Positions 1,953 to 23,477 of a stretch of 46,651 nucleotides of DNA are shown here, one piece after another. Made by a program: the position numbers and the translations under genes. Below the pieces are notes generated by a model, which was not told the DNA's origin, did no database searches, and saw only the letters and a list, made by a program, of their open reading frames with translations. The stretch comes from Candidatus Desantisbacteria bacterium CG1_02_38_46 (GTDB lineage: Bacteria; Desantisbacteria; UBA1551; UBA1559), in assembly GCA_001871015.1 (NCBI GenBank), contig MNUO01000108.1, positions 1 to 46,651 of the forward strand, in the 5' to 3' direction. Positions within the stretch are counted from its first letter, which is position 1. The number at the start of each line of letters is the position of its first letter.

Positions 1953-2663
1953 ATGACTTATAATGTAAAGACTGAGAATTTTGAAGGTCCTATTGAATTA
2001 CTGCTGGACCTTGTGAAGAAAAATGAGATAGATATATATCAGGTATGGATTAGTAAAGTTACCGCTGAATACCTCAAACATCTAGAAATTGTACAATCTT
2101 TAAATCTGGATGAGGCACTTGAATTTCTTATTATCGCCGCGAGTTTAGTTTATCTAAAGTCTCGCAGTCTCCTTCCACAGGAGACACTTGAACTGGTAGA
2201 AGAAGAGGAGCAGTTAAAGAGGTCTCTCGAGAGCTATGCCCAGGAATACGATAAATTCAGACAGGTTGCCGACCACCTTAAGGAAAAAGCAATAATTGCT
2301 GCCGACCACTTTACCCGTCCTGTACCTGAGGAATTAAAAAAAGAAGAGTATATTGAAGCAACTCTGTTTGACCTTGTTTCTGCTTTTAAGAATATACTTG
2401 CTGAATCAGAAAAGAGGGAATATGTTAGAGAGATAACTCCCGAGGTGGTTACTGTGGAGCAGAAAATGGAAGAGATTATAAGTTTATTACAGGGTGAAAA
2501 TGCGACGGTTCAATTTAGCCGAATTTTTAAAAATGCATTAACCCGGCTTGAAATAGTGGTGTCGTTCCTGGCATTGTTAGAATTGATAAGACTGAGAAAA
2601 GTCCGGGCTATACAGAAAAAATTATTTGCAGAAATCGAACTTGTTGGAGTCCCATCATCTTGA
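1953..2663 (+). CDS. scpA: Segregation and condensation protein A
   Basis: MTYNVKTENFEGPIELLLDLVKKNEIDIYQVWISKVTAEYL and LVYLKSRSLLP typical ScpA; followed by scpB. Confidence 0.92.
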   Translation: MTYNVKTENFEGPIELLLDLVKKNEIDIYQVWISKVTAEYLKHLEIVQSLNLDEALEFLIIAASLVYLKSRSLLPQETLELVEEEEQLKRSLESYAQEYDKFRQVADHLKEKAIIAADHFTRPVPEELKKEEYIEATLFDLVSAFKNILAESEKREYVREITPEVVTVEQKMEEIISLLQGENATVQFSRIFKNALTRLEIVVSFLALLELIRLRKVRAIQKKLFAEIELVGVPSS

Positions 2664-2691
2664 TAGCTAAGGAAATTATACCAAAAGTGTT

Positions 2692-2830
2692 GTAACTCAA
2701 ACCTTTAGGTTTGATATCAGGACTAAAGTCCTGAGTTACAGCAGGTCAGGACTAAAGTCCTGAGTTACAGCAGGTCAGGACTAAAGTCCTGAGTTACGTA
2801 ACTCAGACCTTCAGGTCTGATTTTTCTTGA
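2692..2830. repeat. Cluster of palindromic repeats (TCAGGACTAAAGTCCTGAGTTAC family)
   Basis: Three copies of tcaggactaaagtcctgagttac (two with 29-bp period) between gtaactcaaacctttaggtttga and tcagaccttcaggtctga. Confidence 0.9.
2803..2825 (+). terminator. Terminator-like hairpin formed by a repeat unit
   Basis: TCAGACCT TC AGGTCTGA followed by TTTTT. Confidence 0.55.
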
Positions 2831-2847
2831 AATAATGGAGAGAAGAA

Positions 2848-3375
2848 ATGGAGTCAGCTCAAAATTTACCTCCCAAGTCAATAATAGAATGCTTACTTTT
2901 TGTCTCAGATGTTCCTCTGAATCCTCAAAGACTTGCCCATCTTACCGGGTTATTAGAGGAAGAAGTCAAACGGATTCTAATGGAATTAACCCAGGAGTAT
3001 GAGAGGGATGGTCGCAGTTTCAAGATTGCTGAGATTGCTGATGGATTTTTGATGTGTACGCGGCATGAATTTGCGCCATGGATAAAACTACTGTACGCAT
3101 CTCGAAACAGAGCAAAATTGAGCAAAGCGTCTCTCGAAGTTCTGGCGATACTTGCCTATCGACAACCAATCACAAGAGCAGAGATAGAGGCAATTCGAGG
3201 CGTAGACTGTAGCGGGGTACTGCACACCATTCTGGAGAGAAGGTTGATTAAAATTTCAGGGCGCAAGAAAGTTCTTGGTCGTCCGCTCCTTTACCGCACA
3301 ACAGATGAATTTCTGATTTATTTCGGATTAAAAGATCTTTCAGAATTGCCCCGCGTGGAAGAATTGCGTTTATGA
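2848..3375 (+). CDS. scpB: Segregation and condensation protein B
   Basis: ECLLFVSDVPLNPQRLA, LEVLAILAYRQPITRAEIEAIRGVDCSGVL, FLIYFGLKDLSELP typical ScpB. Confidence 0.93.
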   Translation: MESAQNLPPKSIIECLLFVSDVPLNPQRLAHLTGLLEEEVKRILMELTQEYERDGRSFKIAEIADGFLMCTRHEFAPWIKLLYASRNRAKLSKASLEVLAILAYRQPITRAEIEAIRGVDCSGVLHTILERRLIKISGRKKVLGRPLLYRTTDEFLIYFGLKDLSELPRVEELRL

Positions 3376-4619
3376 AAATCAAGAAGTTAGGGGAATTTGG
3401 ATTAATTGAGCACATCCGCCGCCACTTTACATCTTACACCTCCTCACCTCGGGGAACCCACGTTCTGCGTGGGTCGGGCACCCGCCTTACACAGAATTTC
3501 ATTGGCATCGGTGATGACACCGCTGTCATTAAGATTTCGTCCAAAAAATATTTGCTATGGACAACAGATATTCTTATAGAAAGCATCCACTTTCTCCCTA
3601 AACATCTTTCACTTTTACCTTTTAGATTTCGGCTTTCACCTACTTTTATGCTGGGCTGGAAAGCACTTGCTGTAAATCTGAGTGACATCGCAGCAATGGG
3701 CGGGATACCCCAGTATGCTCTGGTTACCCTCGGATTGAAGGGAAATGAGGATGTAAAATTCGTTGATGAATTATACCGTGGAATGAAATCTTGTAGTGGC
3801 AGAGCTCGCTATGATTGTAGTGGCAGACCTTGGTCTGCCGAAAAGTCGAGTAAACTCGACCACTACAGTAGTGGCAGACCTTGGTCTGCCGTCAAAATCC
3901 TCGGTGGCGATACTACAAAGTCACCCATTTTAGTGATAGATGTTTCTGTTATTGGAGAAGTTGAGAAGAAAAATTTGGTGTTACGCAGGGGCGCATCCCC
4001 CGGCGATGTAATTTGCGTTACAGGTTTCTGCGGCGATTCTGCCGTGGGGCTTGCTATACTTCGTAGAGGCTCGATTCATCGAGCCCATTGTAGTGGTACG
4101 ACCCACCCTTCGGGTGGGTGCCCCGGCTCTGCAAATGAGAGACATCTTATTTGTCGTCATCTAATGCCCACTCCTCGTCTCAAAGAAGCAAGAATTATCG
4201 CAAAGAATCATCTTGCAACTTCTATGATTGATAATAGCGATGGTCTCCTCGCTTCAGTTAAATTTCTGTGTCAATCTTCTGGTGTTGGTGCAAAAATCTA
4301 CGAAGATAAAATTCCCATTTCTAAACAATTAATTAAGGGACTGTTCCACCCGCCTCGGGCTGAGGGACTGTCCTATTGCCGTAGTGGCAGAGTTCACTCT
4401 GCGATACAAAAATTTGCCCTCACCGGTGGCGAAGACTACGAACTCGTTTTTACAGTACCGCCCCAGAAATTAAATGATGTTTTGACTAAAATTCCTGAAT
4501 TAACCGGTACACCCGTGACCGCAATAGGGGAAGTTACAAAAAATAAAGGGATTTTTGTCTGCAATTCCAGTGGCAAGAGGAAAAATATAAAAAATATGGG
4601 TTTTGACCATTTTGTGTAG
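3372..4619 (+). CDS. thiL: Thiamine-monophosphate kinase carrying several in-frame palindromic insertions
   Basis: FIGIGDDTAVI, LAVNLSDIAAMGG, KILGGDTTKSP, MIDNSDGLLAS, LTGGEDYELVFTVP ThiL motifs, interrupted by non-conserved inserts. Confidence 0.92.
   Translation: MKIKKLGEFGLIEHIRRHFTSYTSSPRGTHVLRGSGTRLTQNFIGIGDDTAVIKISSKKYLLWTTDILIESIHFLPKHLSLLPFRFRLSPTFMLGWKALAVNLSDIAAMGGIPQYALVTLGLKGNEDVKFVDELYRGMKSCSGRARYDCSGRPWSAEKSSKLDHYSSGRPWSAVKILGGDTTKSPILVIDVSVIGEVEKKNLVLRRGASPGDVICVTGFCGDSAVGLAILRRGSIHRAHCSGTTHPSGGCPGSANERHLICRHLMPTPRLKEARIIAKNHLATSMIDNSDGLLASVKFLCQSSGVGAKIYEDKIPISKQLIKGLFHPPRAEGLSYCRSGRVHSAIQKFALTGGEDYELVFTVPPQKLNDVLTKIPELTGTPVTAIGEVTKNKGIFVCNSSGKRKNIKNMGFDHFV
3451..3486. repeat. 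Palindromic insertion in thiL (site 1)
   Basis: gaACCCACGttctgCGTGGGTcgggcacccgcc. Confidence 0.6.
3791..3891. repeat. Palindromic element cluster in thiL (site 2), TGTAGTGG...CCACTACA family
   Basis: tgtagtGGCAGACCttGGTCTGCCgaaaaGTCGAGTaaACTCGACcactacagtagtGGCAGACCttGGTCTGCC; gtagtgg starts at 3793, 3817 and 3868 (spacing 24 and 51 nt). Confidence 0.92.
4061..4131. repeat. Palindromic insertion in thiL (site 3)
   Basis: GGCTCGATtcATCGAGCC then tgtagtggtacgACCCACCCttcGGGTGGGT. Confidence 0.85.
4338..4403. repeat. Palindromic insertion in thiL (site 4)
   Basis: gggactgttccacccgcctcgggctgagggactgtcct plus gtagtggCAGAGTtcACTCTGcg. Confidence 0.75.
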
Positions 4620-4753
4620 TGACTGTTCTTGAAGCATCACAATTTTAATAAAATACCGTTTCAAATTTGGATAAACTTTTTGGAGATACGTCTTGGATGC
4701 AAAAAGAAAACGATGAATTACTGAAATATTTTGTATAAAAAATTTTATGGAGG

Positions 4754-5053
4754 TTGATGATGACAAAGGATGAAATTATTAATATTCTTAGCACTCAATT
4801 GCCTTTTATACAGAAGCAATTCTATGTAAAAGAAATAGGGGTATTCGGATCTTTTGTAAAGCAGGAGTACAGTGAGGAAAGCGACATAGATGTGCTTGTT
4901 GAACTTGATAATAGACATAATGACTTATTTAATTTTATCCGTCTCAAAGACTATCTTGAAGAATTGTTTCATAAAGAAGTTGACCTTGTGATGAAAGGAG
5001 CAATAAAACCAAGAATCAAGGACAAAATATTAAAGGAGGCGATTTATGTCTGA
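4754..5053 (+). CDS. Minimal nucleotidyltransferase (MntA-like antitoxin of a HEPN/MNT module)
   Basis: GVFGSFVKQEYSEESDIDVLVEL (GSx10DxD); overlaps downstream HEPN gene. Confidence 0.9.
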   Translation: MMMTKDEIINILSTQLPFIQKQFYVKEIGVFGSFVKQEYSEESDIDVLVELDNRHNDLFNFIRLKDYLEELFHKEVDLVMKGAIKPRIKDKILKEAIYV

Positions 5054-5402
5054 GAGAGATTATTTTTTGTTTATTGAAGATATACTAAATGCCATTCTGA
5101 AGATTGAAAAATATACTGAGAACGAAACGTTTGAAACTTTTTCAATAAATGATATGGCTGTTGATGCAGTAATCAGGAATTTTGAAATTATTGGAGAGGC
5201 GGCTAGCAATATCCCAAAAGAAATTCATGGAAAATATCCTTATGTAGAATGGAAGGAAATGACAGGATTCAGAAATGTTATCATTCATGATTATTTTGGA
5301 ATAAATCTTAGCACAGTCTGGAATACAGTAAAAAATAATATTCCTCTACTCAAAGAACACATTATAAAGATGAAAGAAGATTATGAGCAAGCAAACACTT
5401 GA
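5046..5402 (+). CDS. DUF86/HepT-like HEPN ribonuclease toxin
   Basis: NFEIIGEAASNIPKEI...EMTGFRNVIIHDYFGI (Rx4H motif). Confidence 0.9.
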   Translation: MSERDYFLFIEDILNAILKIEKYTENETFETFSINDMAVDAVIRNFEIIGEAASNIPKEIHGKYPYVEWKEMTGFRNVIIHDYFGINLSTVWNTVKNNIPLLKEHIIKMKEDYEQANT

Positions 5403-5658
5403 ACCAGATTTTGTTTTATTCCTTGAAAAAAAGGATAACTGGCAGACCTTGTATTATCAAATATTTATTGAACCCAAGGGTGGACATTTATTAAAACAGG
5501 ATGAATGGAAAGAAAAATTTTTGAGGTCATTAAAAGATGATGCAAGCGCTATAATTCTTTGGCAAACAAGAAAATATATAATTTGGGGTATGCCTTTTTA
5601 TAATGAACAACTAAGAAAAACTGAGTTTGAGAAAGAGATTGATAAATTAGTTCAGTAG
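5383..5658 (+). pseudogene. Possible C-terminal remnant of a type III restriction Res/helicase subunit
   Basis: LEPDFVLFLEKKDNWQTLYYQIFIEPKGGHLLKQDEWKEKFL resembles the Res C-terminal end; only 91 aa, no helicase motifs. Confidence 0.5.
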
Positions 5659-5776
5659 ATAGATATCAATTATATAACCGAGAAATAGGTTATACTTTAT
5701 TAATTTTACGAATCGCTATAGAGGGACTCAAGCCCCCTGGAAGTAGCCACGAAGTGGTTATTTTGTGTCATGATTT

Positions 5777-6199
5777 ATGAAAATCATAACAAATTCCACA
5801 TCTGAAACCAAAAAATCTGCCTTTCGTTTTGCAAAAAAACTCAAGAAAGGCGATATATTATGCCTTGTAGGTGACCTTGGAAGTGGCAAGACCACATTTG
5901 TCCAGGGATTAGCAAAAGGACTTGGAGTTAAAGATATACCCACCAGTCCGAGTTTCGTCCTGATGAATATCTACAAATGTAAACTGCCACTTTATCATTT
6001 TGATCTGTATCGCCTGGACAATACTGATGAAATCCGCAATCTGGGCCATGAAGAATTCTTTTATGGCGACGGTATTACCGTTGTGGAATGGGCAGAAAAA
6101 TTGAAAGAATTGCTGCCGAGTAAATATATTGAAGTAAAATTCAAAATTCTTGGCAAAAATAAAAGAGAGATATTAATTGTTAAAAAAGAAAAGGAATAA
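5777..6199 (+). CDS. tsaE: tRNA threonylcarbamoyladenosine biosynthesis ATPase TsaE
   Basis: GDLGSGKTTFVQGLAKGLG Walker A, TSPSFVLMNIY, HFDLYRL, VVEWAEK. Confidence 0.95.
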   Translation: MKIITNSTSETKKSAFRFAKKLKKGDILCLVGDLGSGKTTFVQGLAKGLGVKDIPTSPSFVLMNIYKCKLPLYHFDLYRLDNTDEIRNLGHEEFFYGDGITVVEWAEKLKELLPSKYIEVKFKILGKNKREILIVKKEKE

Positions 6200-7236
6200 T
6201 GTTTGAACCGAGATTTAGATATACAAATAAAATAGTTCAGTTACTAACCAAAATTTCTGCAGCAAGAGAGGCAATTCTCAATTCACCACTAATTCCAAAG
6301 TGGGAAGTTACTCTAAGGCGCGAGGCAATAATCCGCAGCGCCCATTCATCGACGAGTATTGAGGGAAATAGGTTATCTTTGGAACAGGTAAGTGATTTAG
6401 CACAGGGAAGAGAAGTGATGGCTACACGAAAGGATAAACGAGAAGTCTTGAATTATTTGAAAGTTTTGGAAAATATTGGAAATTTGATAAAAGGAAAGTC
6501 AATATATGAGAAAGATATTTTAAATATCCACCGTATGGTGACAAAAGACACCTTAGATAATCCAAATGATTGCGGGGTTTACCGCACCCGCTATGTTGTA
6601 GTGGGAAATAGACTTACAGGAGAAGTGTTTTTTAGGCCACCAAAAAACGAAGATGTGCCCAAGTTAATAAAAGGTTTATTTGAATGGATAAACTCTGAGG
6701 AAGCAAAAGAACTCGACGCCATTCTTGAAGCAGGAATAGTGCATTATGAATTTGTCAGAATCCATCCTTTTGTTGATGGGAATGGCAGAACTGCAAGAGT
6801 TCTGGCAACTTTGGTTCTTTATCTACGAGGATTTGACACCAAACAATTTTTTTGCCTTGATGATTATTATGATTCTGATAGACAGGCTTATTACAGAGTG
6901 TTGCAAAGTGTTGACAAAAAAACGTTGGATGTGACCAGATGGTTGGAATATTTTGTTGAAGGGGTGAATGTAAGCATAGAAGCTGTCAAGGAAAGAGTTA
7001 TAAAACTTAGCAGTGAAAGATTAAGAAAGTCAAAAAGAGGCCAGATTGCTTTAACCGAAAGGCAGATTAGGATTGTGGAATTTATAAATCAAAATGGTAA
7101 GATAACCAATAGGGATGTAAGAGAAATGTTTAAACTTTCAGATGAAGGAGCACTAAAGGAAATTAAAAAGTTGGTAAAGTTAGAAGTTATTAAGAGTGAA
7201 GGCAAAGGGAGATCTCTCTACTATATTCTTTGGTAG
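6199..7236 (+). CDS. Fic family protein with C-terminal winged-helix
   Basis: STSIEGNRLSLEQV and HPFVDGNGRTARVL (HPFxxGNGRxxR); C-terminal ALTERQIRIVEFINQNGKITNRDV. Confidence 0.93.
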   Translation: MFEPRFRYTNKIVQLLTKISAAREAILNSPLIPKWEVTLRREAIIRSAHSSTSIEGNRLSLEQVSDLAQGREVMATRKDKREVLNYLKVLENIGNLIKGKSIYEKDILNIHRMVTKDTLDNPNDCGVYRTRYVVVGNRLTGEVFFRPPKNEDVPKLIKGLFEWINSEEAKELDAILEAGIVHYEFVRIHPFVDGNGRTARVLATLVLYLRGFDTKQFFCLDDYYDSDRQAYYRVLQSVDKKTLDVTRWLEYFVEGVNVSIEAVKERVIKLSSERLRKSKRGQIALTERQIRIVEFINQNGKITNRDVREMFKLSDEGALKEIKKLVKLEVIKSEGKGRSLYYILW

Positions 7237-7272
7237 GGTTGGCGATTAGGTTGGCGATTAGGTTGGCGATTA
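7237..7272. repeat. 12-bp tandem repeat x3
   Basis: ggttggcgatta three times immediately after the fic stop codon. Confidence 0.95.
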
Positions 7273-7309
7273 GACAAAGTGTAAAAAGGTGTGGTGACGG
7301 GGTCAGGTC

Positions 7310-8257
7310 TTGACAAATGACAAATCATTGTTGATTCTGGGAATTGATACGAGCGGAGAGTATTGCAGTGTGGGGTTGGTGCAGGGTGAAAGAGTCCTTG
7401 GAGAAATAAGCGAAAGTGCTCCGCAGAAACACTCAGACCAGTTAATTCCATTTATTGATAAGATTTTGAAGGATAGCCACCTGAAAATACAGGATGTGGA
7501 TGGTATTGCCGTGTCACTGGGTCCGGGCAGTTTTACCGGATTGCGGGTAGGAGTGGCAACTGCGAAGGCACTGGCACAGGGGCTGGAGATTCCAATTGTG
7601 GGAGTCAGAACATTGGATATGATAGCATTAAATGCGGTTGAATATTGTAGTGGCAGACCTTGGTCTGTCGAAAAGTCGAGTAAACTCGACCACTACAGTA
7701 GTGGCAGACCTTGGTCTGTCGAAAAGTCGAGTAAACTCGACCACTACAGTAGTGGCAGAGTTTACTCTGCTATAGATAGTCGAGCGGGGTACCCGCCGAA
7801 GGCGGGTCGGACCACTACAATTTGTCCAATTGTGGATGCGAGGAAACAGCAGATTTATACGGCAGTCTATAAAATAAAGTCTAAGAGCCGAAGAACCGAA
7901 GAGCCGAAGTTAAAAAAAATGACAAAAGATTTAGTACTCACAATTGACGAGTTCTTTAAATTACTGATGACTTATAACTCACGACTTATGACGGTATTTA
8001 TAGGTAACGCAATTCCAGTTTACGGCGATGTAATAAAAGAGAAACTGTGTGGGTGTCCGCCAGGAGTGGGTGGGGGCGGGCAGGCGATTTTTGCAACTAA
8101 GGAATTATGGTATCCCCGCGCATCAAATATTGCACTGGCAGGACTGGAGAAATTGCAGCAAAATAAAAAAGGTGACAATCTTTTTAAATTGAAACCGATA
8201 TATTTGAGGGAGCCGGATATCAGGGCTAAAGCCCTGAGTTACATGGTTCAGGGCTAA
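7310..8257 (+). CDS. tsaB: tRNA threonylcarbamoyladenosine biosynthesis protein TsaB with large in-frame insertion; start uncertain
   Basis: LILGIDTSGEYCSVGLV, PLGPGSFTGLRVGVATAKALAQG-like motif, PIVDARKQQIYTAVYK; insert between AVEY and ICPIVDAR. Confidence 0.9.
   Translation: MTNDKSLLILGIDTSGEYCSVGLVQGERVLGEISESAPQKHSDQLIPFIDKILKDSHLKIQDVDGIAVSLGPGSFTGLRVGVATAKALAQGLEIPIVGVRTLDMIALNAVEYCSGRPWSVEKSSKLDHYSSGRPWSVEKSSKLDHYSSGRVYSAIDSRAGYPPKAGRTTTICPIVDARKQQIYTAVYKIKSKSRRTEEPKLKKMTKDLVLTIDEFFKLLMTYNSRLMTVFIGNAIPVYGDVIKEKLCGCPPGVGGGGQAIFATKELWYPRASNIALAGLEKLQQNKKGDNLFKLKPIYLREPDIRAKALSYMVQG
7645..7820. repeat. ~176-nt composite palindromic insertion in tsaB, flanked by ttgtagtgg/ccactacaa
   Basis: gtagtgg at 7647, 7698, 7749 (exact 51-nt period); units GGCAGACCttGGTCTG, GTCGAGTaaACTCGAC, GCAGAGTttACTCTGC, ACCCGCCgaaGGCGGGT. 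Confidence 0.95.
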
Positions 8258-8270
8258 AGCCCTGAGTTAC
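8216..8270. repeat. Palindromic repeat pair (TCAGGGCTAAAGCCCTGAGTTAC) overlapping tsaB 3' end
   Basis: gatatcagggctaaagccctgagttac and ttcagggctaaagccctgagttac. Confidence 0.9.
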
Positions 8271-8293
8271 AAAACTGATTTTGGGAGGTGACC

Positions 8294-9919
8294 ATGCGTT
8301 CAGATACGATTAAAAAAGGTGTTGAGCGGGTGCCGCACAGGGGTTTGTTATATGCAACAGGTTTGTCAAAAGAAGATTTCAGGAAGCCATTTATCGGGAT
8401 AGCTTCAAGTTTTACAGATATTGTTCCCGGGCATACAGGAATGCGGGAACTGGAAAGATTTATTGAGCGTGGTATCTCTGCAGCAGGCGGAGTTCCTTTT
8501 ATCTTTGGCATACCGGCAATCTGCGACGGAATTGCAATGGGGCACAAAGGTATGAATTATTCCCTTCCTTTAAGAGAACTTATCGCTGACACTATTGAAT
8601 CTGTTGCAAATGCACATTGTTTTGACGGACTTGTTTTACTTACAAATTGTGACAAGATTACTCCTGGTTGCCTGATTGCTGCTGCACGTCTGAACATTCC
8701 AGCAATTATTATTACTGCAGGTCCGATGTTGTGCGGAAGATACAAAGGAACTGTAAGGCTTGATTTGGTTCACGATACTTTTGAAGCAGTAGGCAGGGCA
8801 AAGGCAGGCAAGATAACACAGGAGGAACTGGATACTCTTGAAATTGAAGCCTGTCCTGGTTTTGGCTCCTGTCAGGGATTATACACTGCAAATACGATGG
8901 CTTGCCTTACAGAGACTATGGGAATGTCTGTAACAGGTTGTGCTACTGCACTCGCTGTTTCTGCAAAGAAAAGGAGGATTGCATTTGAAAGCGGGAAAAA
9001 GGTTGTGGAATTAATTAAGAAAAAAGTCACTGCGAAAAAAATTCTGACAGAGAATGCTCTACTCAATGCAATTAGAGTTGATATGGCACTTGGAGGTTCT
9101 ACCAACACTATCCTTCATCTCACTCGCTTGGCAAGAGAATTAGAGATTGATTTACCTCTAAAACTTTTTGACATAATAAGTCGTTCTACACCGCACATTG
9201 TAAATCTACGCCCGGGCGGGGAATATTTTCTTGAGGATCTGGAGTATGCAGGTGGAATTCCAGCGATATTAAATGTTTTAAAGAACGACCTTAAATCTTC
9301 GTTGACTGTTAACGGAAAGAATATTCTGGAAATCGCAAAAGAAGGCGAGGTGTTTGATTCAGAAGTAATTCATAAAAAATCCAATCCATACCACAAAGAA
9401 GGCGGAGTTGCAATCCTTTTTGGGAATCTGGCACCCGGTGGAGCGGTTGTAAAACAAATAGCAGTAAGTCCGAAGATGCGCCGGTTTACCGGACGCGCAC
9501 ATATCTTTAATTCAGAAGAAGAAGCGATGAGAGGCGCTATGAACAAGAAAATTAAAAAGGGCGAAGTCATTGTTATCCGCTATGAAGGAGAAAAAGGTGC
9601 ACCAGGAATGCCAGAGATGCTTTCTTTAACTGCGTTTTTAACCGGGATGGGAATGGGAGAAAGTGTAGCATTGATTACAGACGGAAGATTTTCAGGTGGC
9701 ACCCGTGGTCCCTGTATAGGGCACATAGCACCTGAGGCAGCGGTTGGTGGGCCGATTGCAATTGTTAAAGATGGAGATATTATCCACATTGATATTGACA
9801 GGCGCAGGATTGAGTTGAAATTAAGTGATGCTGAAATCAAATTGCGACTTGCTAAATGGAAACCTCCTCTGCCCAGAGTAAAGACAGGCTACCTTGCAAA
9901 ATATGCTAAATTACTTTGA
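8294..9919 (+). CDS. ilvD: Dihydroxy-acid dehydratase
   Basis: [53 protein letters not shown]; the track start at 8288 is a GTG inside the RBS, ATG at 8294 preferred. Confidence 0.95.
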
Positions 9920-10923
9920 AGACAGATAATTATATGAATAATTCGTTAATAAGAAAATTAAGAAAAGAAGTCAACAGAGAAATTATTACAACTATTAGAA
10001 GTTTTTGTGAAATTCCAATTGCCTCCCAGATGTTGGGCTACCAGATGGGTTTGCTGAAAAACGAAAGTAAAGAAACACAGGGCAAGCGTTTTCGCCCGAT
10101 TTTGTGCTTACTTTCAAGCCTTGCAATAAACGGTGATTACAAAATGGCATTACCAGCTGCTGCAGCGATTGAGTTAATTCATAATTTTTCCCTGATTCAC
10201 GATGATATTCAGGACGAGGATGAATGCAGACGCGGCAGGAAGACGGTCTGGAGGAAATGGGGTAATAATCAGGCAATTAACGCAGGGGATGCAATGCATA
10301 CTCTTGCGAATATCGCATTGCAGAGATTATTTAAAATGAATTTGTCCCCGAAAGTCATTGATTCTGTTTTTTTCATAATTAATAATGCCTGTTATCAAAT
10401 GTGCGAGGGGCAAATGCTGGATATAGGTTTTGAAAAAAAGTGGAACGTTAGACTTCCTCAGTATTTACAAATGATTCGCAAGAAAACCGCCACCCTCATC
10501 CAGAGTGCTCCATATTGTGGTGCATTAATTGCCACGCAGAATCGAAGCGTGATTAGACATTACAAAAATTTTGGAGCTAATGTTGGAATGGCATTTCAAA
10601 TTTTCAATGACCTTTCAGGATGTGACGGTTCGGCTGCGCAGTTCAATCATTTTTACAGTGATTTGATAAAGAAGAAAAAGACTCTGCCAGTAATTCTTGC
10701 TTTCAAAAGTTTGGAATCGGCACAGAAGAGAAAGATAAAAGAAAGAGAAATGCTCAGCCTGTTTAAAGAATCCGATGCCATTCAGCATTCTCGAAGAATT
10801 GGCGAGAACTATTTAGAGAATGCACTTCTTGAACTGAATAAAACAGGTATCAAGAATCCATCGCAGGAATTATTAAAAGAATATATAAAAAAGGGGACAG
10901 GCTACTTTTCCCAAGGAATCTGA
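9916..10923 (+). CDS. Polyprenyl synthetase family protein
   Basis: [39 protein letters not shown]; second Asp-rich motif degenerate ([12 protein letters not shown]). Confidence 0.85.
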
Positions 10924-10955
10924 AATGTGTAGGTCTGACTACGTGCGGGGGTTTG

Positions 10956-11969
10956 ATGCGCATTGTTTTTATGGGAACACCTGAATTTGCTTTGCCGTCA
11001 TTAAATAAGTTGATTCAGACGCATAACATTTTGTGCGTGGTGACACAAACAGATAAACCAAAAGGCAGGGGAATGAAATTAACTCCTCCACCAATCAAAT
11101 TTCTTGCCCAGCAATTGAATATTCCTGTGGTTCAGCCAGGGAAAATTGGAGAAATTTCAGGATATTTAAAATCACTTTCTCCAGATGTAATTGTTGTGGT
11201 TGCTTATGGAGAAATTTTGTCAGAGGAAATTCTGAAAATTCCCAGATTTGGGTGTATTAACCTTCACGCTTCTCTTCTTCCAGAATTGCGGGGTCCAGAA
11301 CCCATTGCCTGGAGCGTTATTCTTGGCAAAGAAAAAACAGGGTTAACCACAATGTGGATGGATAAGGGAGTGGATACGGGTGACATAATTCTACAGAAGG
11401 AAATTGAAATTTTACCAGATGATACAAAAGGAAGTCTTGAGCAAAAAATGTCACTTACCGGCGCTGATTTTTTATGTGAGACACTAAAGATGGTTGAAAG
11501 CAGCAATGCCCCACGAAAAAAACAAGTCCGATGTCCCCCGATGGACATCGGGGGAATACGGACTCCGAACGCAAGCATCGGAGAGGGGAATCCAATTTAC
11601 GCTCCAATGATAAAAAAGTCAGATTGTCTGATTGACTGGTCAAAACCTGCATGGGAGATTCATAATCTCATCCGGGGATTAAATCCAGCGCCATCTGCAT
11701 ACACTTTCTTAGAAGGTAAACGTTTGAAAATTCACAGAACAGCCGTCAATGTAGGGCAAGAATGTAGCGGTGCAATGACTCCGAAAGGACGGAGTATACG
11801 GACTGTAGAGCAAGGCGAGATTATTGAAATCAAAGAAGATGAAATTCTCGTTGCTACTGGCGAAGGCATACTCTCTCTTCTTGAGATTCAACCTGAGGGC
11901 AAACGTGCAATGTCAGTGAAGGACTATTTACAAGGGCATTCTTTAAAAGAAAGAATGAAATTTGGATGA
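10956..11969 (+). CDS. fmt: Methionyl-tRNA formyltransferase with in-frame palindromic insertion
   Basis: MRIVFMGTPEFALPSL, GCINLHASLLPELRGPEPIAWSVILG, GLNPAPSAYT. Confidence 0.95.
   Translation: MRIVFMGTPEFALPSLNKLIQTHNILCVVTQTDKPKGRGMKLTPPPIKFLAQQLNIPVVQPGKIGEISGYLKSLSPDVIVVVAYGEILSEEILKIPRFGCINLHASLLPELRGPEPIAWSVILGKEKTGLTTMWMDKGVDTGDIILQKEIEILPDDTKGSLEQKMSLTGADFLCETLKMVESSNAPRKKQVRCPPMDIGGIRTPNASIGEGNPIYAPMIKKSDCLIDWSKPAWEIHNLIRGLNPAPSAYTFLEGKRLKIHRTAVNVGQECSGAMTPKGRSIRTVEQGEIIEIKEDEILVATGEGILSLLEIQPEGKRAMSVKDYLQGHSLKERMKFG
11529..11584. repeat. Palindromic insertion in fmt
   Basis: CCCCCGATGgaCATCGGGGG then acggaCTCCGAacgcaagcaTCGGAG. Confidence 0.8.
11778..11796. repeat. Second small palindrome in fmt
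   Basis: ACTCCGaaaggaCGGAGT followed by atacggact (shared with the 11529 element). Confidence 0.6.
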
Positions 11970-11990
11970 AGACAGCGGAATAATAAATAA

Positions 11991-13241
11991 ATGAACCTAA
12001 AAAGCATGCTGATTTTTTTTGATTTTAAATTCAGAAAATACAAAAAGATAAAATATCTTGGAATGCCACTGATGACTGAAGTCGGTAAAGCTATTCCTAA
12101 AGAATTATTTCTTAAATCAGCAGAAGATTTGAGGATGGTAAGTAAGGATAATAAAATAATTACGGAAAATAAAGATGAAATTAGTTTTATCCTGGACAGG
12201 GCAATTCATGACGTTCCCTGGCCCGAACAGCGATGGATTGAATACATCTGCGAACACAAAATCCAGGACTATACGCAAGAGCAACAGTTTTTTCTTAAAG
12301 CACATTTACAACCTTTTATCTCACTGTATGAAGCCCTGAAAATAGATTATAGGAGGGGTGTCTATCTGCGTGATTTGTTTAATGGCAAGGAGTTATTTTT
12401 AATGGATATAGGTTTCGGGACAACGGCAAAGAAGGGTATGTTGTTAGCAACGAGGGTTATCACTTTTGAAGGGTTAAATTTCACTGCAGGTGCTCCCATA
12501 CTCTTTAGACAAGAAGATAAGAAACAATTGGTAGAAAATTTCACTTTCCTGTACGAGAAAAAGAAAAATGAAATGACATGGGAAAAAATGATGCGAAAAT
12601 ACGCTCCCTATTTTTTTATTGAATACAGAAAAAGAGACTATACTGTCTATTTTGCAAACGTGACAGAGGATTCGATAACTCCTTTCTCTCTTCTAACAGC
12701 CGCATGGGATTACGCAAGAAAGAAAAATCTTATTAAGCACTCAGATGACTTTCCTGTGGAGCAGTGTTTAATCAATTCAAATTGGCAGAAAACAGGATTA
12801 GCCAGCATGGTTATCACCAGAAGCCAAAAAGATGGCAAACTGATTGTAGGTGTTTTTTTAGTGGATATTTTCTGTTTAGGGCTGAAGGATACATTTTTCA
12901 ATGCTAACATACCAGCTGATCAGTTTGAAGATATTTTTTTGCGTAAATATTATCAGAACACAGAACCAGTAACAATTGGCATTAACTATGCTAAAGAAAT
13001 TATATTTGGAGCGATAGATTATGCCAGAAAATTAGGATTTGAACCTCAAAAAAATTTCAAATTATCAAAATATGTTTTGGGAACAGAAAAACTGACATAT
13101 CAGCATAACATTAAATTTGGAGGGCCTGAGGGGAAACCATTATATATTGCAGGGCCTTACGATGATTACAAAAAAATTGTTCGTCAGCTTACAGAACTTT
13201 TGGGAGAAGGCGGATTCCATTTTATCCTACCTTCAGAATAA
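11991..13241 (+). CDS. Hypothetical protein (416 aa)
   Basis: Long ORF in operon direction; no family recognised. Confidence 0.7.
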   Translation: MNLKSMLIFFDFKFRKYKKIKYLGMPLMTEVGKAIPKELFLKSAEDLRMVSKDNKIITENKDEISFILDRAIHDVPWPEQRWIEYICEHKIQDYTQEQQFFLKAHLQPFISLYEALKIDYRRGVYLRDLFNGKELFLMDIGFGTTAKKGMLLATRVITFEGLNFTAGAPILFRQEDKKQLVENFTFLYEKKKNEMTWEKMMRKYAPYFFIEYRKRDYTVYFANVTEDSITPFSLLTAAWDYARKKNLIKHSDDFPVEQCLINSNWQKTGLASMVITRSQKDGKLIVGVFLVDIFCLGLKDTFFNANIPADQFEDIFLRKYYQNTEPVTIGINYAKEIIFGAIDYARKLGFEPQKNFKLSKYVLGTEKLTYQHNIKFGGPEGKPLYIAGPYDDYKKIVRQLTELLGEGGFHFILPSE

Positions 13242-13331
13242 TCATATGTATCATCTTTTACTTCTAACGTGAAAGCATTAAGTAAATGTTAAATATTTAA
13301 CGTTTGTATTAAATACAAGGAGGTATAAAAA

Positions 13332-13808
13332 ATGTTTACTGGACAAAAAACAAGAATTTTTAAAAAAATGGTCGCTGTTACTATTTTTGGACTGGTGTGC
13401 TCAAACCTGATATTTGCGCAAGCAGTGCAGACAATTTATTCTAGCGGTACGGTATATCTTCCTGATGTATGTCCACAGAGTTGCATTGCAGTGCTAACTG
13501 TAAATGTTGTCTGGAAGGATTTCCCTGCCTCTCAGGGTGGCACTGGACGCAAAATAGTTGAGGAAGCAACCTTCACAGGAAAAGAAGGGGAGAGGGAAAT
13601 TAAATTTACAGGTGTCAGGATTACTCCATCTTTTTTCCGGGGAGAGATTTCACTGAATGTGCAGTGTGAAATTAAAAAAGGCGATATGGTGGTGGCAAGA
13701 TTTAAGATGGATGGAGAAGATGCAAACAGCCCGAAGCCGATGAGTTATAATGAGGCGGTTGCCGGTAATCTGCTGAATCTGAAATTGAAAATGAAAGCAG
13801 CAGAGTAA
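13332..13808 (+). CDS. Hypothetical exported protein; C-terminus/stop inside a repeat
   Basis: RBS aaggaggt; N-terminal signal peptide KKMVAVTIFGLVCSNLIFAQA. Confidence 0.7.
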   Translation: MFTGQKTRIFKKMVAVTIFGLVCSNLIFAQAVQTIYSSGTVYLPDVCPQSCIAVLTVNVVWKDFPASQGGTGRKIVEEATFTGKEGEREIKFTGVRITPSFFRGEISLNVQCEIKKGDMVVARFKMDGEDANSPKPMSYNEAVAGNLLNLKLKMKAAE

Positions 13809-13853
13809 ACTCTGCCACTACATAATGAGCAGCAGAGTAAACTCTGCCACTAC
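13797..13853. repeat. Palindromic repeat pair (GCAGAGTAAACTCTGCCACTACAT)
   Basis: gcagcagagtaaactctgccactacat twice; reverse complement of the gtagtggcagagtttactctgc unit in tsaB. Confidence 0.92.
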
Positions 13854-13864
13854 ATTCCTCAATC

Positions 13865-13892
13865 TTGACTTTTTGCATTTTTATGATATACT
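13865..13892 (+). promoter_or_regulatory. Sigma70-like promoter upstream of ilvB
   Basis: TTGACT-N16-TATACT. Confidence 0.6.
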
Positions 13893-13931
13893 GATTAGAT
13901 AATAATTACAAATTCATGATAGGAGTTCAAG

Positions 13932-15602
13932 ATGAAGAAGACAGGTGCTCAGATACTTATTGAAAGTTTAATTAAAGAAGGTGTGGAAATTATATTTGGA
14001 TACCCGGGTGGGGCTACGCTTTCTATATATGATGCGCTTTATGACGCACCGATAAAACATATCCTTGTGCGTCATGAACAGGGAGCAGCACATATGGCTG
14101 ATGGTTATGCCAGAGCTACAGGTAAAGTGGGTGTATGTATGGCTACTTCAGGACCCGGTGCGACAAATCTTGTTACCGGCATTGCTACTGCTTACATGGA
14201 TTCTGTTCCAATTATTGCCATTACCGGACAGGTTCCAACTCCGATGATTGGAAATGACGCTTTTCAGGAAGCAGATATAACAGGCATTACCCGTCCGATT
14301 ACCAAACACAATTATTTAGTGAAAGATGTTAAGGATTTAGCATATGTTGTAAAAGAAGCATTCTACATTGCTTTTTCAGGAAGGCCGGGTCCGGTGTTGA
14401 TTGATATTCCAAAGGATGTACAGGCAGCGTCTACTGAATATCACTATCCAGATAAAATCAGCCTGCGTAGTTACAACCCTACATACTACGGCCATCCTGG
14501 ACAAATCAAAAAGTTAGTTGAAGTAATCCAGAAATCAGAGCGTCCTGTCATTTATGCTGGGGGAGGAGTAATAATTGCAAATGCCAGTGAAGAATTAAAG
14601 AAATTCGCAGAGACTACTGGTATTCCGGTGACAACTACTCTCCTGGGGTTGGGTGGTTTTCCTGAAACTTCTAATTTATCCCTTGGGATGCTGGGTATGC
14701 ATGGAACAAGGTATGCAAATTATGCGGTTACGGAATCTGATTTGCTTATTGGTATAGGTGCGCGATTTGATGACCGTGTCACCGGCAAATTGAGTGATTT
14801 TGCACCAAAAGCAACAATTGTTCACATTGACATAGACCCCACGAGTATCAGCAAGAGCGTTGAGGTTGACATTCCTATTGTAGGAGATGTGAAGAATGTG
14901 CTTGTGGAGTTGAATAAATTAGTAAAGAAAAAAGATAATCTTAAACCCTGGCTGGACAAAATTGAAAAGTGGAAAAAAGAGTACCCGTTAGGTTATAAGC
15001 AGGGCAAGGAGATTAAACCTCAATTCGTAGTCCAAGAAATCAGTCGGATTACAAAGGGAAATGCAATCATCGCTACAGAGGTGGGCCAGAATCAGATGTG
15101 GTCAGCACAATTCTACAAGTTTGCTAAACCCCGCACCTTTCTTTCTTCGGGTGGATTAGGTACTATGGGTTATGGTTTTCCTGCTAGCATTGGAGCAAAG
15201 GTTGGCTGCCCTGACAAAATAGTATTTGATATTGCTGGAGATGGTAGTTTTCAGATGAATCTTCAGCAATTAGCAACTGCTGTACAATTTAAAATAGCGG
15301 TGAAAGTGGCAATTTTGAATAATGGTTTTTTAGGGATGGTGCGTCAATGGCAGGAATTGTTCTTCAACAAGCGGTATTCGCAAACCCCCATTGAAAACCC
15401 TGATTTTGTAAAAATTGCCCAGGCATATGGTGCAATGGGAATTAGAGTGACAAAACCAGAGGACGTGGGTCCTGCAATTTCTAAAGCAATTGAATCTCCC
15501 CTTCCTGTAGTTATTGACTTTCATGTGGCGCCAGAGGAGAATGTATTTCCGATGGTGCCAGTTGGTTCACCAATTTCAGAGATGATTGGAGGTCTTGCAT
15601 GA
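13932..15602 (+). CDS. ilvB: Acetolactate synthase, large subunit
   Basis: [76 protein letters not shown]. Confidence 0.95.
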
Positions 15603-23417: not shown

Positions 23418-23477
23418 GATATCAGGACTAAAGTCCTGAGTTACGTAACTCAGACCTTCAGGTCTGATTTTTCTTGA
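23418..23477. repeat. Palindromic repeats; 56 nt identical to 2775..2830
   Basis: tcaggactaaagtcctgagttacgtaactcagaccttcaggtctgatttttcttga present in both places. Confidence 0.95.
23450..23472 (+). terminator. Terminator-like hairpin from repeat unit
   Basis: TCAGACCT TC AGGTCTGA then TTTTT. Confidence 0.5.

Follow-up and report, generated by a model that had tools for sequence, protein, structure and literature searches.

A tandem REPIN array lying in frame within the tsaB gene of a Desantisbacteria genome and very probably translated

In the genome of Candidatus Desantisbacteria bacterium CG1_02_38_46 the tsaB gene, a tRNA-modification gene expected to be essential, is interrupted between the codons for AVEY and ICPIVDAR by a strongly palindromic stretch, which raises the question of what kind of element has settled there and in which way the gene copes with it. 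The gene lies on contig MNUO01000108.1, whose 46,651 nucleotides are referred to as “the window” (features are compiled in the Table). While a first-pass annotation had assigned 176 nt to the insertion (7645-7820), alignment to TsaB of a relative, G001, limits the inserted codons to 7646-7819. The reading frame is open all through the insert and the full TIGR03725 model (1-212 of 212) covers residues 9-300 of the protein with 173.5 bits (cut-off 69.3), so that the downstream TsaB sequence is indeed in frame, as had been stated. GTAGTGG is found at 7647, 7698 and 7749, in agreement with the earlier description, and CCACTAC at 7690, 7741 and 7812; likewise, all four hairpins named previously are present. 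The claimed exact 51-nt periodicity holds for two copies, a count which may be wrong in this short-read assembly, but does not extend to the third unit, which is divergent and composite. This third unit ends in the half GTCGAGCGGGGTACCCGCCGAAGGCGGGTCGGACCACTAC, and another gene of the genome, that of a P-type ATPase (L224), contains this half in almost identical form. Folded as single-stranded DNA, the insert reaches z = -8.2.

Table. Features of the tsaB and thiL genes and of further repeats in the window.
Feature	Position	Strand	Basis or remark
tsaB ORF, 315 aa	7310-8257	+	TIGR03725 match; sole tsaB found in the genome
Palindromic insert, 58 codons, 174 nt (CSGRPWSVEKSSKLDHY SSGRPWSVEKSSKLDHY SSGRVYSAIDSRAGYPPKAGRTTT)	7646-7819	+	alignment to G001 TsaB
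REPIN copy 1 with linker base	7647-7697	+	unit in full: GTAGTGG-CAGACC-TT-GGTCTG-TC-gaaaa-GTCGAGT-AA-ACTCGAC-CACTAC-a
REPIN copy 2	7698-7748	+	100% identity to copy 1
Divergent third unit, about 71 nt	7749-7818	+	REP(+) GTAGTGGCAGAGTTTACTCTGC and composite REP(-) half with ACCCGCC/GGCGGGT hairpin
Second palindromic repeat family (TCAGGGCTAAAGCCCTGAGTTAC)	8220-8257	+	encodes the last TsaB residues; runs on to about 8265
thiL ORF, 415 aa, REPs at at least 3 sites	3372-4619	+	TIGR01379
In-frame thiL REP cluster (one degenerate REP, then REPIN and REP)	3793-3890	+	
In-frame thiL REP, ACCCACC hairpin	4090-4119	+	
In-frame single REP in thiL (RSGRVHSAI)	4381-4404	+	
Two tandem REPs, ORF end/intergenic	13800-13853	-	same REP family

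The 51-nt unit is a REPIN, since its two halves are GTAG-footed palindromes inverted with respect to each other (GTAGTGG-palindrome ... palindrome-CCACTAC), which is the anatomy described for REPs and REPINs (PMC2817692, PMC3116915, PMC3733652). All typical units carry GTAG at the foot of the palindrome (GTAG-TGG-palindrome), and the inverted pair, separated by a short spacer, can fold as one hairpin or as a clover. The palindromic insertion and its location in tsaB had been recognised correctly at first pass, but not its membership in a known kind of mobile repeat; moreover, the same kind of element is present at three thiL sites of the window. With the strict REP pattern, GTAGTGGNNGANNTTNNTCNNC, 186 matches are obtained in the 1.73-Mb assembly (a draft MAG of 133 contigs, 88% complete) compared to 0 for the same pattern read backwards as a control; this difference and the folding of the insert show that the element is no product of chance. 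A census of the stretches around REPs, with the first 100 of the 186 strict-pattern places listed, locates 11 of 73 strict clusters inside genes backed by Pfam or NCBIfam and the other 62 outside validated genes. Both the high copy number and the mostly intergenic location are those of GTAG-type REPs. At 51 nt and with GTAG feet the unit differs from the Rickettsia palindromic elements (RPE), which span 105-146 nt, and searching window positions 2500-14500 against Rfam at the gathering cut-off gave no match, hence no known intron or ribozyme. At the ends of clusters in this genome the base preceding GTAGTGG is T in 60 of 77 cases and A is favoured at position -3 (47 of 77), a bias that possibly reflects a target-site preference.

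At least 93 genome stretches, spread over several phyla, contain exact GTAGTGGCAGAGTTNACTCTGC; besides the present genome, the exact 22-mer occurs in genomes assigned to Stahlbacteria/WOR-3, Elusimicrobia, Zixibacteriota, Ratteibacteria, Planctomycetota and Brocadiaceae. Outside this genome, 80 REP loci with 100 REPs were considered; 12 of these REPs fall within ORFs of at least 120 aa, most of which, judging by their translations, seem to be spurious short frames or extensions on the upstream side. REPs of the GTAG type are non-autonomous and are assumed to owe their spread to single-strand transposases of the RAYT (TnpA-REP) kind. A first scan revealed no linked RAYT near the 80 REP loci because RAYTs are far rarer than REPs; the link was provided by the flanks of the RAYTs. 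Y1 transposases were sought in twenty genomes (19 found through the 22-mer scan, and G001) and their flanks were read. The RAYT gene of a Zixibacteriota genome (L142) is bracketed by GTAGTGGTCGAGCTTGCTCGACCTTTTAAGCAAAGTAAACTTTGCCACTAC (51 nt) and by a 50-nt REPIN copy, both of which have GTAGTGG or GTAGGG as feet, end in CCACTAC and thus share the architecture of the tsaB unit. In three further RAYT genes (L143, L168, L190) an inverted REP pair is part of the gene's own reading frame (VVAEIALL ... AKRALPLQ), with one REP before and one after the HUH region. In these four cases from other genomes the REP type accompanies its cognate RAYT.

No RAYT of this REP-bearing clade was found in the 88%-complete assembly of the genome itself, from which about 12% is missing. 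Its only Y1_Tnp genes are L009, L010 and a contig-edge fragment, L011; GTAGTGG is absent from the flanks of L009 and L010, and the REPs near L011 are at least 350 nt away. RAYT-REP units are usual, though possibly missing in REP-bearing species (PMC3733652). In G001 a RAYT belonging to the REP-bearing clade is present (48% identity), and the REP at its flanks, GTAGCTGCAGGGCTTGCCCTGC, is a different one. L009 (C60:8541-8867), which has an in-frame TAA, and L010 (C109:6925-7248) are RAYT-like and have other inverted repeats (AAAAGGGGACG.., GGTCAGACCTCAACATC) at their flanks.

The tsaB gene is one of many hosts. In-frame REPs are present at about 16 sites, distributed over 13 genes whose identity is backed by Pfam or NCBIfam, where strict clusters account for 11 intragenic cases and degenerate or composite copies add more. 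The hosts are TsaB, ThiL (at least 3 sites), an OppD-like ATPase, a complex I/Mrp-type subunit, an AroA-Cmk ORF, TrpE, TrpG (directly before GVQFHPES), Asd, TopA, IspE, a radical SAM-DUF2344 protein, a P-type ATPase and a metallophosphoesterase-like protein with four 30-nt units. The thiL segment 3814-3891 shares 97% identity with tsaB 7644-7721, and ispE (L247:2378-2543) harbours seven tandem 24-nt REP units encoding about 56 residues of SRINSATT-like repeats. The Asd insert (L238) starts with GTAGCTGCAGGGATTGCCCTGC, which is close to the REP flanking the G001 RAYT; hence, two REP types are located side by side in this gene.

Whether the inserted codons are actually translated was approached from the spacing of the repeats. 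Among pairs of same-strand GTAGTGG inside genes, 24 of 25 have a start-to-start distance divisible by three, whereas this is true of only 30 of 91 pairs elsewhere (Fisher p = 5e-9); with each cluster and spacing entered a single time, the ratio is 12/13 compared to 19/60. As open frames served to delimit the intragenic pairs, part of this excess is built in, a reservation which is answered in part by the search for split hosts: among the 73 clusters no host gene broken by a REP was found, the 6 same-strand neighbour pairs being, by inspection of their sequences, different genes or spurious frames. The spacing supports the earlier proposal of tandem amplification with the frame kept. As to the fate of the insert, for which toleration, splicing or some other processing had been put forward, the 3n spacing together with the absence of frame-broken hosts favours toleration and translation over splicing, excision or bypassing. 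TsaB and the other host proteins accordingly very probably carry extra REP-encoded peptides, as far as can be judged from their reading frames. In sense orientation two frames of the repeat are open, of which SGRVYSA is used at about 11 sites and VVAEFTL at 2, a bias consistent with hydrophilic loops being favoured. Sequence alignment with TsaB of E. coli (1okj) places the insert between residue 121, the end of the matched N-terminal part, and a strand starting near residue 127, which suggests that it probably forms a flexible surface loop. An AlphaFold2 model of TsaB calculated without alignment (pLDDT 35) turned out to be too poor for placing the insert.

We consider it highly probable, at almost nine chances in ten, that the tsaB insert is a small tandem REPIN array which landed in frame, grew by duplication and is read by the ribosome. 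A single REPIN, presumably mobilised by a RAYT in this lineage, would have landed in tsaB right before the conserved ICPIVDAR stretch and would then have given rise to the array by duplication of 51 nt, i.e. 17 codons. With a net length divisible by three and one frame devoid of stops, the array would be read through by the ribosome, and TsaB would gain 58 residues and presumably stay active in this decorated form. Comparable insertions would have been retained at the other in-frame sites, and copies breaking an essential gene would presumably have been removed by selection.

Removal of the insert before or during decoding, be it by excision from the RNA or by ribosome bypassing, which is known for the byp elements of yeast mitochondria, would suit a gene expected to be essential, and the strong self-complementarity of the insert is what an excised or bypassed element would display. 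Such an element, however, requires neither a length divisible by three nor a stop-free frame, and the nearly invariable 3n spacing inside genes, the lack of any frame-broken host among the 73 clusters and the missing Rfam match in 2500-14500 render this very unlikely. Lowest of all we rate the notion that tsaB and the other hosts are decaying pseudogenes or that the insert is an assembly artefact. The assembly is a draft in many contigs, and assemblers do fail at repeats; yet about 16 independent sites are in frame, both flanks of the insert belong to one gene, and the order thiL, tsaE, tsaB, ilvD, polyprenyl synthase is kept in G001. Furthermore, judged by codon position, the flanks evolve as coding DNA, as they differ mostly at third positions (0.28/0.16/0.60 and 0.29/0.24/0.53 for positions 1/2/3), and a second intact tsaB, whose discovery the first-pass annotation had regarded as adverse to its reading, was not found in the 88%-complete assembly.

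That the REP-encoded peptides are not merely tolerated but have been co-opted for a useful role appears improbable, albeit less so than removal or decay. The choice of the hydrophilic frame over an equally open one would agree with such a role, as would the presence of repeats, albeit other ones, at the corresponding places of TsaB, ThiL and Asd in G001, the one other genome, of the same order, to which the comparison within the phylum refers. The occupying sequences, however, are unrelated between the genera, and REP peptides are found in unrelated enzymes, which rather points to permissive loops; the frame bias is explained by avoidance of hydrophobic segments in surface loops. At the TsaB site G001 has no REP but a different in-frame palindromic repeat (AAATCCCCTCTTACCCCCC...GGGGGGATGGCGGGGGATTT), and its Asd as well as its first ThiL REP site contain GGGACTGTCCC / CCCGATGGACATCGGG repeats. 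In these three enzymes, the places taken by REPINs in the one genus hold GGGACTGTCCC / CCCGATGGACATCGGG or AAATCCCC-type repeats in the other. IspE of G001 is devoid of an insert, and its TopA has merely an acidic stretch at the corresponding place. The shared sites may reflect either several insertions into permissive loops or a single old insert whose sequence was replaced by that of new families. We tentatively entertain the idea that fixed permissive sites in core proteins of the phylum may serve as long-lived docking points at which unrelated palindromic families turn over, mobile DNA steadily rewriting the loops.

In-frame GTAG REPs in genes, arrays that encode tens of residues and related species differing in the REP at a given site were already reported in 2013 by Di Nocera, De Gregorio and Rocco (PMC3733652), who described 24 GTAG consensus sequences, mostly intergenic REPs of which some lie in frame within ORFs, dimers and clusters encoding 20-30 or 43-82 aa, and different REPs at about the same recB site of two Xanthomonas species. 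The present repeats resemble these by description in being GTAG-footed palindromes that form in-frame arrays. In contrast to that work, the lineage lies outside those surveyed, many core metabolic and tRNA-modification genes are affected, with multiple sites in a gene, and the 3n spacing was measured against intergenic clusters. What is new is an unusually heavy instance, notable for the number and the centrality of the host genes. With REPINs and BIMEs (Bertels and Rainey 2011; PMC3116915) the elements share the inverted REP pairs, the short spacer, the tandem clusters and the link to RAYTs; those elements were described as extragenic, whereas a minority of the present ones resides in coding sequence. 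Multi-phylum RAYTs with REPs in frame in their own genes are known as TnpA-REP subclass 2.4 (PMC6006769), which L143, L168 and L190 resemble by description, but no such RAYT was seen in the genome itself. Like RPE (Ogata 2000, reviewed in PMC2229807), which are inserted in frame in conserved genes and of which one is borne by an active guanylate kinase, the present repeats are palindromes in frame in conserved genes; they are set apart from RPE by description (51 nt, GTAG feet). One and the same genome appears to display a non-coding mobile repeat becoming protein sequence, with a spacing that is unconstrained outside genes and strictly 3n within them. Since the same enzyme sites bear different repeats in a relative, it becomes directly testable whether such insertions are junk or provide protein evolution with raw material, and this in well-assayed enzymes, namely TsaB, ThiL, IspE, TrpG and Asd.

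Further repeats were observed in the window. A second palindromic family, TCAGGRCTAAAGYCCTGAGTTAC, is arranged in tandem at 2697-2820, 8220-8265 and 23422-23477, and its copy at 8220 forms the C-terminus of TsaB. Short tandem repeats with the unit GGTTGGCGATTA are located upstream of tsaB (7240-7275), and AAGAGCCG units within the gene (7883-7909) encode a lysine/arginine-rich stretch. At the contig end (46258-46651), an 85-nt stretch occurs again 309 nt downstream with 96% identity.
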